This document shows, piece after piece, positions 33,188-36,201 of a DNA stretch of 64,000 bases (its first letter is position 1; each line of letters begins with the position of its first letter). The notes under the pieces were generated by a model. That model was not told the origin of the DNA. It was given only the letters and a program-made list of their open reading frames with translations, and searched no databases. Made by a program: the position numbers and the translations under genes. This DNA is from Euzebya tangerina (GTDB lineage: Bacteria; Actinomycetota; Nitriliruptoria; Euzebyales; Euzebyaceae), in assembly GCF_003074135.1 (NCBI RefSeq), contig NZ_PPDK01000001.1, forward strand, positions 2,232,001 to 2,296,000, read 5' to 3'.

Positions 33188-34537
33188 CTACTGCAGGTTC
33201 TTCCAGCCGTCCAGCTCGTCCTGCAAGGTCGCCCGCTTGGCGGCGTCCTGCACGCCCTGCCCCTCCGCGGTGGCGCCCACCAGCACCCCGAGCTTCCCCG
33301 TGTGGGCATTGGTGTGCATGGCGTAGGCGGCGTCCGCCACGTCGTCCAGCGCGAAGGTCTCGGTGAGGATCGGGTGGATCATGCCGAGGTCGACCAGCCG
33401 GTTGGCTTCCCACGCCTCCTTGTAGTTGGCGAAGTGCGAGCCGATGATCGACTTCAGGTTCATCCACAGGTAGCGGTTGTCGTAGTCGTGGTTGTAGCCC
33501 GACGTCGACGCACACGTGACGATCTTGCCGCCCTTGCGGGTCACGAAGACACTCGCGCCGAAGGTGGCGCGCCCCGGGTGCTCGAAGACGATGTCGATGT
33601 CCCGTCCACCCGTGAACTCGCGGATCCGGCTGCCGAACCGCTTCCACTCCTTGGGGTTCTGCTCTTCGCCGTTCCAGAACTGATAGCCCTCGGCTTTGCG
33701 GTCGATCACGGTGTGGATCCCGAGGGAGTTGAGCAACTGCACCTTCTCGGGGGAGGAGACCACACAGATCGGGATCCCGCCGCCGTTGGCCACCAGCTGC
33801 GCCGCGAACCCGCCGAGCCCCCCGGTCGCACCCCAGATCAGGACGATGTCGCCCTGCTTCATGCCACCCGCGTTGGGGCTGACCAGCATGCGGTAGGAGG
33901 TCGCCAGGGTCAGGCCCAGGCAGGCGGCCTCCTCCCAGTTCAGGTGGGTCGGCATCGGCATCAGCTGGTTGGCCTTGACCATGCTGAGGTCGGCCATGCC
34001 CCCGAAGTTGGTCTCGAAGCCCCAGATCCGCTGGCGCGTGTCGATCATGGAGTCGTCATGCCCCTCGGGGCCCTCCATGTCGACGTAGTTGCAGTGGACG
34101 GTCACCCGATCGCCGGCCTTCCACCGAGTCACCCCCGGGCCGACGCGCACCACGACGGCGGCCGCGTCAGAGCCGACGATGTGGTACGGGAGATCGTGGC
34201 GCGCCCCCAGCGCACCTTCGCGCGCGAAGCGCTTGAGGAAGCCGAACGTGGGCAGGGGCTCGAAGATCGAGGTCCACACGGTGTTGAAGTTGAGGGCGGA
34301 GGCCATGGGTGCGATCAGGACCTCGTTCGGACCCAGAGGAGGGATCGGCACCTCATCGATGTGCAGCGACTTCCGCGGGTCCTTCTCCGAGGAGTCCAAC
34401 CCGGCGAACATCTCGACCTCGTCTGCTCGGACGACGGCAGCACGCATCGACTGGGGGAGCGGTGTGGACTCGATGGCCTCCGGTGTCGCCTCGGGGGAGA
34501 GGGCGACGTCCAATAGGGTGCTCATCTCGGTCGGCAT
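33188..34537 (-). CDS. ccr: Crotonyl-CoA carboxylase/reductase
   Basis: The 449-residue protein is a full-length reductive carboxylase of the MDR superfamily. It reduces crotonyl-CoA with NADPH and adds CO2 to give ethylmalonyl-CoA. The CO2-pocket residues known from Kitasatospora are visible: Asn in ALNFNTVW (N85), the FE pair in WGFETNFGG (F174-E175) and the His of GSHFANY. The nucleotide motif is WGATGGLGGFA. This is the signature enzyme of the ethylmalonyl-CoA pathway for acetate assimilation, or of extender-unit supply. ATG 34537 follows GAGGA; an ATG at 34549 is possible. Upstream lies an unusual cluster of DnaA-box-like sites. Confidence 0.95.
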   Translation of the reverse strand: MPTEMSTLLDVALSPEATPEAIESTPLPQSMRAAVVRADEVEMFAGLDSSEKDPRKSLHIDEVPIPPLGPNEVLIAPMASALNFNTVWTSIFEPLPTFGFLKRFAREGALGARHDLPYHIVGSDAAAVVVRVGPGVTRWKAGDRVTVHCNYVDMEGPEGHDDSMIDTRQRIWGFETNFGGMADLSMVKANQLMPMPTHLNWEEAACLGLTLATSYRMLVSPNAGGMKQGDIVLIWGATGGLGGFAAQLVANGGGIPICVVSSPEKVQLLNSLGIHTVIDRKAEGYQFWNGEEQNPKEWKRFGSRIREFTGGRDIDIVFEHPGRATFGASVFVTRKGGKIVTCASTSGYNHDYDNRYLWMNLKSIIGSHFANYKEAWEANRLVDLGMIHPILTETFALDDVADAAYAMHTNAHTGKLGVLVGATAEGQGVQDAAKRATLQDELDGWKNLQ

Positions 34538-34680
34538 GGCAGTCCTCATCTCGATTCTCGCGGGATCGGTGAGCGGAGGTTACTGGCCGGTAGCTCCTGA
34601 ACGCCAATCGAGCGGACCGGATCGGGAGCCGAGCAAAATCGGGAGAAGGTAGACGCCGTTCATCGTCCTGTCAACTCACG

Positions 34681-34843
34681 TTTTCCACAGGGTCAGGTGT
34701 GGATTGGAGAGACCCCCGGTTGACCTGCACAAACGGTGCCCGCCAGGCTGAGGAGAGTTGTTGACAAACTGTGGATGTTGCGCGGCATTGCCGTGCTGAC
34801 CTGGTGTTTTGGCCTGTGGACAAACATTTTTCGCTGTGGATTA
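34681..34843. promoter_or_regulatory. Cluster of five DnaA-box-like 9-mers
   Basis: Five sites lie in 163 bases upstream of ccr: TTTTCCACA at 34681 (plus) and four on the minus strand, CAATCCACA (34698-34706), ACATCCACA (34770-34778), TTGTCCACA (34815-34823) and TAATCCACA (34835-34843). The fourth is the exact actinobacterial consensus; the others keep the TCCACA core with one to three changes before it. The stretch is AT-rich for this genome. The 320-base space between ccr (start 34537) and the DUF2342 gene (end 34858) holds no gene that I can support. Confidence 0.6.
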
Positions 34844-34857
34844 CTGGCGCGCGCCGG

Positions 34858-36156
34858 CTACAGATCATCCAGGCCGGCGAGGTCGTCCGGCACCTCCAGA
34901 TCCTCCAGAACGTCCTGTCCTGAAGCCGCCTCCTCGACCGAGATGGCGCCCGTGGCCTCGTCCGCAGCCAGGCGCAGGAGCCAGCGGCTCGGCTCGGCGA
35001 TCTCGGCGGGTGTGGGCAGGTGGACGGCATCGCTCCAGACGACGTCCAGGCCCTGCGGCCCCCGTGCTGCCAGGACCGCCTCGCAGAACACGCGACCGGC
35101 ACCGATGTCGGCGGGTCGAAGGTCCAGTCCCACCAGTTGGGTCAGGAACTGCTCGCCCTTGCCCTGCTGCCCACGCTCAGTGAGCGTGGCGGCTTCGATT
35201 CGCTCGAGGTTCGGCAGCTTCCCGGTTCCGGCGCGGTCCACCAGGACATCGGCGTACCCGGCGATCAGCGAGACCAGGGCCTGCAGCCTGGCGAGGATGT
35301 CGCGCTGCCGATCACTCGGCTCGATGCCCGCGCCGGCCTCTTCGGCCATCCGCTGCATGGCCTCAGGGTCACTGAGCATCTCTGGCCCGAGGTTGCCGAG
35401 GCCGCCCATCTGCTCGACCAGACCGGAGGGGTCGAACTCCGCGGCCGCGGCGAACTCCTCCATCTGCTGCGTTAGATGGGGCATCACCCACTCGGCACCC
35501 TCGAACACGCGCCGGTGAATGCACTCGCGCAGCGCCAGCCAGAACCGCATCTCGTCGCTCGAGATGTCGTGGCTTCGGGCCAACAGCCCTGCCTGGTCGC
35601 CCACCGTTGCCACGATGTTCGTCGGCAGGGTGGGAACGGTCAGGCTGTAGGAGCCCAGCAGCTGGTCGGCCAGGTGGCCTGCGATCGTGCCGACCTGCAT
35701 GCCCGTCAGCATCGCGGTGATCGGGTTCATGGCGCCGGACATGCCGCCAAGACCCGCCATGCCACCCGGAAGTTGGTCGGCCAGGCCCTCGGCCAGCGCC
35801 TTCTGCATGCCGGTGGCGATGGGCTCGACGTAGACGGCGATGCCGCCGGGCCCGGCAGCGCGCTCGACCCACTCCTGTGCCGTGAGGGCCAGCGCGGGAC
35901 CGGGGACCGCGTCGAGCGTCGTGTGGGGATCCAGCCACGACTCCGCGACCCGGACGGCGTCGGCCCAGGCTTCTCCGTCAGCATCAACGCCGATCGCCAG
36001 GCGGGGCTCGCCGGCGATGCCGGCGGCCGTCTGCCGGGCGAAGTCCCAGTTCACGGCTCCTCCTTGCCAGGACATCAGCTTGCTCAGCTCCTTGAAGAGC
36101 GGGATGTTGGCGAAGTCCTGCGGATCGAAGCCGAAGCCGGAGTCGTTGTCGGACAT
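34858..36156 (-). CDS. DUF2342-family protein (zinc-metallopeptidase-like fold, putative hydrolase)
   Basis: The 432-residue protein belongs to the actinobacterial DUF2342 group (Rv3195-like). Family parts visible are the Gly/Met-rich middle (LPGGMAGLGGMSGAMNP), QLLGSYSLTVPT and the helix FWLALRECIHRRVFEGAEWV. In the metalloprotease-like branch this helix reads HExxH. Here it is RECIH, so the first zinc ligand is an Arg and peptidase activity is doubtful; the branch is annotated as putative hydrolase. ATG 36156 starts a Gly/Phe/Asp segment typical of the family; the open frame upstream runs through the divergent gene and is not used. Confidence 0.83.
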   Translation of the reverse strand: MSDNDSGFGFDPQDFANIPLFKELSKLMSWQGGAVNWDFARQTAAGIAGEPRLAIGVDADGEAWADAVRVAESWLDPHTTLDAVPGPALALTAQEWVERAAGPGGIAVYVEPIATGMQKALAEGLADQLPGGMAGLGGMSGAMNPITAMLTGMQVGTIAGHLADQLLGSYSLTVPTLPTNIVATVGDQAGLLARSHDISSDEMRFWLALRECIHRRVFEGAEWVMPHLTQQMEEFAAAAEFDPSGLVEQMGGLGNLGPEMLSDPEAMQRMAEEAGAGIEPSDRQRDILARLQALVSLIAGYADVLVDRAGTGKLPNLERIEAATLTERGQQGKGEQFLTQLVGLDLRPADIGAGRVFCEAVLAARGPQGLDVVWSDAVHLPTPAEIAEPSRWLLRLAADEATGAISVEEAASGQDVLEDLEVPDDLAGLDDL

Positions 36157-36201
36157 GCAACCCATGGTAGTGATGTTGGGCATGGAGCAGAGAAGCCGCT
36201 G

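Follow-up and report, generated by a model that had tools for sequence, protein, structure and literature searches.

The DnaA-box cluster upstream of the crotonyl-CoA carboxylase/reductase gene (ccr) of Euzebya tangerina would be the DnaA-binding part of a control locus common to the class Nitriliruptoria. Judging from comparison of the sequences, we consider it probable (roughly 0.6) that this locus responds to DnaA and makes an RNA acting in trans, by pairing with the leader of dnaA. The observations that were computed are the conservation of the cluster, of the promoter and of the RNA, the covariation in the RNA, the complementarity between its loop and the dnaA leader, and the joint absence of RNA and leader motif. 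In E. tangerina the RNA appears to have been deleted, the deletion being visible in the alignment, and the boxes and the promoter are left.

The DnaA-box cluster of E. tangerina

Five 9-mers with the core TCCACA, and a sixth site, TTGTCAACA at 34759 (minus strand), lie within 163 bp (positions 34681-34843) of the window, i.e. the whole stretch of 64,000 nt that was analysed. The sequence-only reading had counted five boxes, one of them an exact consensus, and all five were recovered at the positions given for them; TTGTCCACA at 34815 (minus strand) is the sole exact consensus box in the 64-kb window. The features of the locus are as follows.

34835..34843, minus strand: DnaA box TAATCCACA, farthest from ccr; recognised by its sequence and by a counterpart at the corresponding position in relatives
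34815..34823, minus strand: DnaA box TTGTCCACA, exact consensus
34770..34778, minus strand: DnaA box ACATCCACA, recognised by its sequence
34759..34767, minus strand: DnaA box TTGTCAACA, with a single mismatch; G002 and G003 have TTGTCCACA at the aligned position
34698..34706, minus strand: DnaA box CAATCCACA, first arm of the inverted pair closest to the promoter
34681..34689, plus strand: DnaA box TTTTCCACA, abutting the -35 element; TTGTCCACA in G001-G003
34797..34812, plus strand: first TGACCTG-type motif TGACCTGGTGTTTTGG, among the boxes; conserved on the opposite strand in relatives (Euzebyales) as CGTTTCCGCAGGTCAGCG
34721..34735, plus strand: second TGACCTG-type motif TGACCTGCACAAACG, among the boxes; conserved on the opposite strand in Euzebyales as CGTTTCCGCAGGTCAGCG
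34669..34674, minus strand: -35 element TTGACA of the promoter that would drive the RNA in relatives, from the alignment with G001-G003
34646..34651, minus strand: -10 element TACCTT of the same promoter, from the same alignment
34625..34626, minus strand: junction of the putative RNA deletion, where the RNA of G001-G003 is missing, with a stub of the 5' arm at about 34626-34635; from the alignment of the metalloprotease-ccr gap
34579..34594, no strand: palindrome TTACTGGCCGGTAG, conserved in G001-G003, near the ccr start; probably a ccr operator
33188..34549, minus strand: ccr, crotonyl-CoA carboxylase/reductase (TIGR01751)
34858..36195, minus strand: zincin-like metallopeptidase gene (PF10103, TIGR03624), the marker of the locus in nearly all relatives

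The G+C content of the 163-bp stretch is 54.6%, against 68.6% for the whole window. The window holds 36 TCCACA cores, and outside the cluster never more than two fall within 170 bp. As a background we sampled 780 kb in stretches across the main contig of the same genome, where the core occurs 0.39 times per kb. This sample contained no 163-bp stretch with four or more cores and only one with three, which appears to be coding. About 0.001 clusters of at least five cores would be expected in the 4.78-Mb genome under a Poisson model, and the exact box TTRTCCACA occurs 48 times genome-wide versus 14 for the reversed control. The density and the conservation described below led us to reject an origin by chance, in agreement with the earlier judgement that chance was very unlikely, and the sample gave no sign of similar clusters scattered around the genome.

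A similar cluster is present in the gap between ccr and the metallopeptidase gene in all three other genomes of the genus (G001-G003), as well as in nearly all relatives at the level of the order whose contig permits a view. It follows the PF10103 metalloprotease gene in nearly all Nitriliruptoria examined; in one family (f4) this element comes only some 1-2 kb later. The sequence-only reading had named loss of the sites in relatives that keep the flanking genes as evidence against it, and no loss pattern of that kind was seen. G004, a family member with a reduced genome (2.1 Mb), has kept the metallopeptidase; its cluster, RNA and leader motif are all absent. A metalloprotease query of the genome contigs found no relatives.

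A predicted structured RNA next to the boxes

In the relatives the cluster is directly followed on its 3' side by a TTGAC-N17-TAnnnT promoter, which is conserved across the order, and then by a rod-shaped hairpin of about 90 nt. The predicted RNA has an outer stem of at least nine pairs, an inner stem of eight pairs and an invariant loop, GGGGAAGG; single-strand folds of eight sequences gave z-scores of -3.5 to -8.6. Among 50 distinct sequences, 95.8% of the cells are paired and 17 of the 18 pairs show two-sided changes (172 cells, against 55 +/- 9.5 when shuffled and at most 26 when slid), in an alignment that was fitted to the model and therefore leans toward structure. RNAalifold, run on a plain MAFFT alignment, returned the same two stems, with two-sided changes in 11 of 20 pairs. 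The 280 bp upstream of 52 of the RNAs hold a mean of 5.1 TCCACA cores.

The RNA is essentially single copy and adjoins the metallopeptidase gene in nearly all genomes where both can be placed. A first model matched 46 of the 66 genomes of the class, and later models added others. Seven drafts without a match (G020, G025, G031, G041, G056, G061 and G077) were not counted as losses, since most are incomplete and, in those checked, the marker gene either is absent or sits at the edge of a contig. Outside the class, another small class with three genomes yielded the RNA in two of them (G091 and G105), with boxes upstream in both and, in G091, with the same neighbour genes as in the Nitriliruptoria. 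No match was obtained among the other Actinomycetota sampled (about 350 genomes). A pattern scan of the genome contigs gave many chance matches outside the class, of which only those also fitting the model well were retained; matches of model R1 on the opposite strand of the same hairpins were ignored as a mirror effect of the stems. In Rfam no family reached or approached its gathering score for this RNA, and matches to RsmY, mraW and miRNA families, all far below their gathering scores, were dismissed. The RNA family is thus new to Rfam.

No match to the RNA was found anywhere in the E. tangerina genome (G000). Aligned with G001-G003, its locus retains the boxes, the -35 element TTGACA, the -10 element TACCTT and the ccr-proximal palindrome TTACTGGCCGGTAG, and about 100 bp spanning the RNA are missing. 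The RNA is absent from an intact locus in two genomes, E. tangerina and G004, and both also lack the leader motif described below, a joint absence seen in two genomes of one family.

Complementarity to the dnaA leader

The sequence to which the loop GGGGAAGG is complementary is CUUCCC(C), located in the dnaA leader. CTTCCC occurs upstream of dnaA in 57 of 64 genomes and the DnaA-box core TCCACA in 58, whereas permuted 6-mers that do not overlap CTTCCC reach 12 at most; these counts are strong, not independent, as the motif had already been spotted when it was put to the test, and as the genomes are related. The motif sits between the dnaA promoter (where recognised) and a DnaA-box triad, often in a small hairpin, CACCG-CUUCCC-CGGUG. 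The complementary stretch measures 6-8 bp and precedes the start of dnaA by about 100-300 nt.

All but one of the 54 RNA-bearing genomes have the motif, 52 within the scanned stretch and G055 just outside it. The remaining one, G010, carries the variant CUUUCC in this hairpin, with which pairing is still possible through G-U. In predicted pairing the real loop GGGGAAGG performed best on average and ranked first of 28 permutations of the loop 8-mer. The motif is also present in six of the seven drafts without an RNA match, and is absent from the dnaA leader of G080 (the single RNA-less outside Actinomycetota control). The E. tangerina leader lacks, besides CTTCCC, the DnaA-box triad that is common to most relatives.

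In E. tangerina dnaA lies at G000:C1:929698, 1.34 Mb from the cluster, i.e. at 28% of the genome. The corresponding distance is 26% of the chromosome in G003, 29% in G006, about 18% in G018, 16% in G032 and 17% in G039. The RNA (or its promoter) faces dnaA in all six genomes, and synteny accounts for part of this constancy of position and orientation. Since the RNA is far from dnaA in the last five of these genomes, a cis antisense of the dnaA leader was rejected.

Box layout and alternative functions of the locus

The main rival, which is compatible with the small RNA, is that the boxes are themselves a site that titrates DnaA or exchanges its nucleotide, like datA or DARS. DnaA oligomers on the inverted and tandem boxes would then tune ATP-DnaA, and the RNA would be a neighbour or a second output. 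Relatives at the level of the order usually have, toward the RNA, the boxes +, 63-77 bp, + + (12-13 bp), + (42-43 bp), - (12 bp) and - (12 bp), with the two TGACCTG-type motifs conserved among them in the Euzebyales; family f4 has + - - (12, 11 bp), + + (11 bp) and often + and - (14 bp apart) beside the promoter. A triad + - - with start spacings of 12 and then 11-12 is thus found in many relatives, close to the arrangement + 14 - 12 - that we measured for DARS1 and DARS2 of E. coli (NC_000913) and that agrees with the DARS core as described (PMC5742627). It occurs within one mismatch upstream of 36 of the 52 RNAs, versus 2 such matches in the 780-kb background. Yet the first spacing is unlike that of the DARS core (mostly + 12 - 12 - or + 12 - 11 - in the relatives), and strict membership of DARS was rejected for this reason. 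Nor is the triad intact in the E. tangerina cluster or in front of 16 of the 52 RNAs; most relatives, besides, carry a similar triad (spacings 11-12 and 12) in the leader of dnaA, and there it has the look of an autoregulatory site. The location of the locus at 16-29% of the chromosome from dnaA points back toward a DARS-like role, as does the retention of the boxes in E. tangerina after the loss of the RNA, which favours some role of the boxes beyond the RNA. On balance we regard titration or nucleotide exchange as the main function as somewhat unlikely.

It is unlikely, too, that the hairpin is a terminator, an attenuator or a protein-binding RNA and that the leader motif is conserved for another reason. 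The hairpin is strong, G+C-rich and located 3' of a gene, its purine-rich loop could be bound by a protein, and antisense sites do not usually lie at such a distance from the start of dnaA as the motif does. However, a conserved promoter lies immediately 5' of the hairpin, a long U run is lacking, the invariant part is the loop and not the stems, the downstream gene varies, and the loop is matched by a complementary leader motif whose variants preserve G-C or G-U pairs. The sequence-only reading had further suggested that DnaA regulates ccr and so couples carbon assimilation to replication. This has become very unlikely: the cluster stays beside the metallopeptidase in at least eight genomes where ccr had no match (G005-G009, G011, G018 and G023), so the element belongs to the locus and not to ccr, and the gene that follows there is unrelated or convergent. 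Control of ccr as a general function was therefore rejected. In G001-G003 the RNA sits between the cluster and ccr, which has its own palindrome close to its start; only in E. tangerina, with the RNA gone, does the promoter beside the boxes face ccr directly, and regulation of ccr there would at most be a late by-product. Equally little remains of the proposed second origin, and a secondary or relic origin seems to us most improbable. The box density does exceed that of the E. tangerina dnaA-dnaN region, but dnaA and its own downstream boxes are elsewhere, the origin genes are not nearby, and the 64-kb window, which contains neither the dnaA-dnaN pair nor a switch in GC skew, thus lacks both marks of oriC. 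What holds of the original description is its datA- or DARS-like part, a fair account of a cluster that is genuine, conserved and ectopic; the RNA beside the boxes of relatives, and its match to the leader of dnaA, had escaped that description.

A putative DnaA feedback circuit and its relation to known systems

The control of DnaA supply is largely open in bacteria outside the model species. We propose that DnaA, bound to an array that ends at the -35 element, would sense the amount or the nucleotide state of DnaA and switch the RNA accordingly. The box abutting the -35 element would let DnaA either aid or block RNA polymerase, the sign being unreadable from the sequence. The invariant loop GGGGAAGG would then base-pair with the CUUCCC(C) motif of the dnaA leader, altering DnaA synthesis and so closing a feedback loop; DnaA binding, expression of the RNA, pairing in the cell and the sign of regulation are what we infer here. 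In E. tangerina, where the RNA would have been deleted and the motif is absent, the remaining boxes and promoter may now do no more than bind DnaA or influence transcription into ccr, and their retention may reflect a function of their own. Whether this amounts to a new feedback circuit of the Nitriliruptoria, in which a DARS-like array and a small RNA acting on the dnaA leader let DnaA activity set DnaA synthesis from a roughly fixed chromosomal distance, and in which E. tangerina is a natural loss of the RNA arm, we consider an evenly balanced question.

Two regulatory RNAs of dnaA resemble the proposed one. ArrA of Bacillus subtilis is described as an antisense RNA to the dnaA leader whose transcription is under DnaA control (PMC12112137); the Nitriliruptoria RNA would share the complementarity and the DnaA-controlled transcription, but ArrA acts in cis, opposite the dnaA leader, whereas the RNA described here lies 0.65-1.5 Mb away, would pair through a short loop and is accompanied by a DnaA-box array of its own. 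EcpR1 of Sinorhizobium meliloti is described as a trans small RNA with a conserved loop that pairs with dnaA mRNA (PMC4414408). The relatives likewise encode in trans a predicted structured RNA whose loop is the complement of a segment of dnaA mRNA, a likeness in the mode of action; unlike it, EcpR1 is stress-induced and alphaproteobacterial, and the description cited (PMC4414408) does not mention a DnaA-box cluster. Judged by sequence, the Nitriliruptoria RNA most likely combines the role of ArrA (cis, B. subtilis) with that of EcpR1 (trans, S. meliloti).

The array itself shares with DARS1 and DARS2, as described (PMC5742627, PMC4585315), a box I opposite to boxes II and III, a second spacing of 12 bp, and a non-coding location at a roughly fixed distance from oriC. 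It differs in the first spacing, 12 in the relatives and not 14, and in the triad not being intact in E. tangerina; the E. coli elements, moreover, are described there without an RNA. DARS sites are further characterised by stimulating ADP release from DnaA, and DARS2 by IHF and Fis sites. With datA of E. coli, and with the DnaA-box clusters of Streptomyces coelicolor and B. subtilis that are described as datA-analogous (PMC5742627), the array has in common that it is a dense, ectopic DnaA-box cluster in a non-coding region, whereas the box layout is different and that description contains no such RNA. Sites of the datA type are also characterised by binding DnaA and by repressing untimely initiation.

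If the proposed circuit is real, it adds a dnaA-distant RNA arm under DnaA boxes to the few known controls of the initiator, in a deep actinobacterial lineage. The system is amenable to clean tests, given a single-copy RNA, a short complementarity between loop and leader, and a natural genome that lacks both.

Elsewhere in the E. tangerina genome, at G000:C1:1635472-1635508, two exact DnaA boxes (TTGTCCACA and TTATCCACA) lie 28 bp apart.
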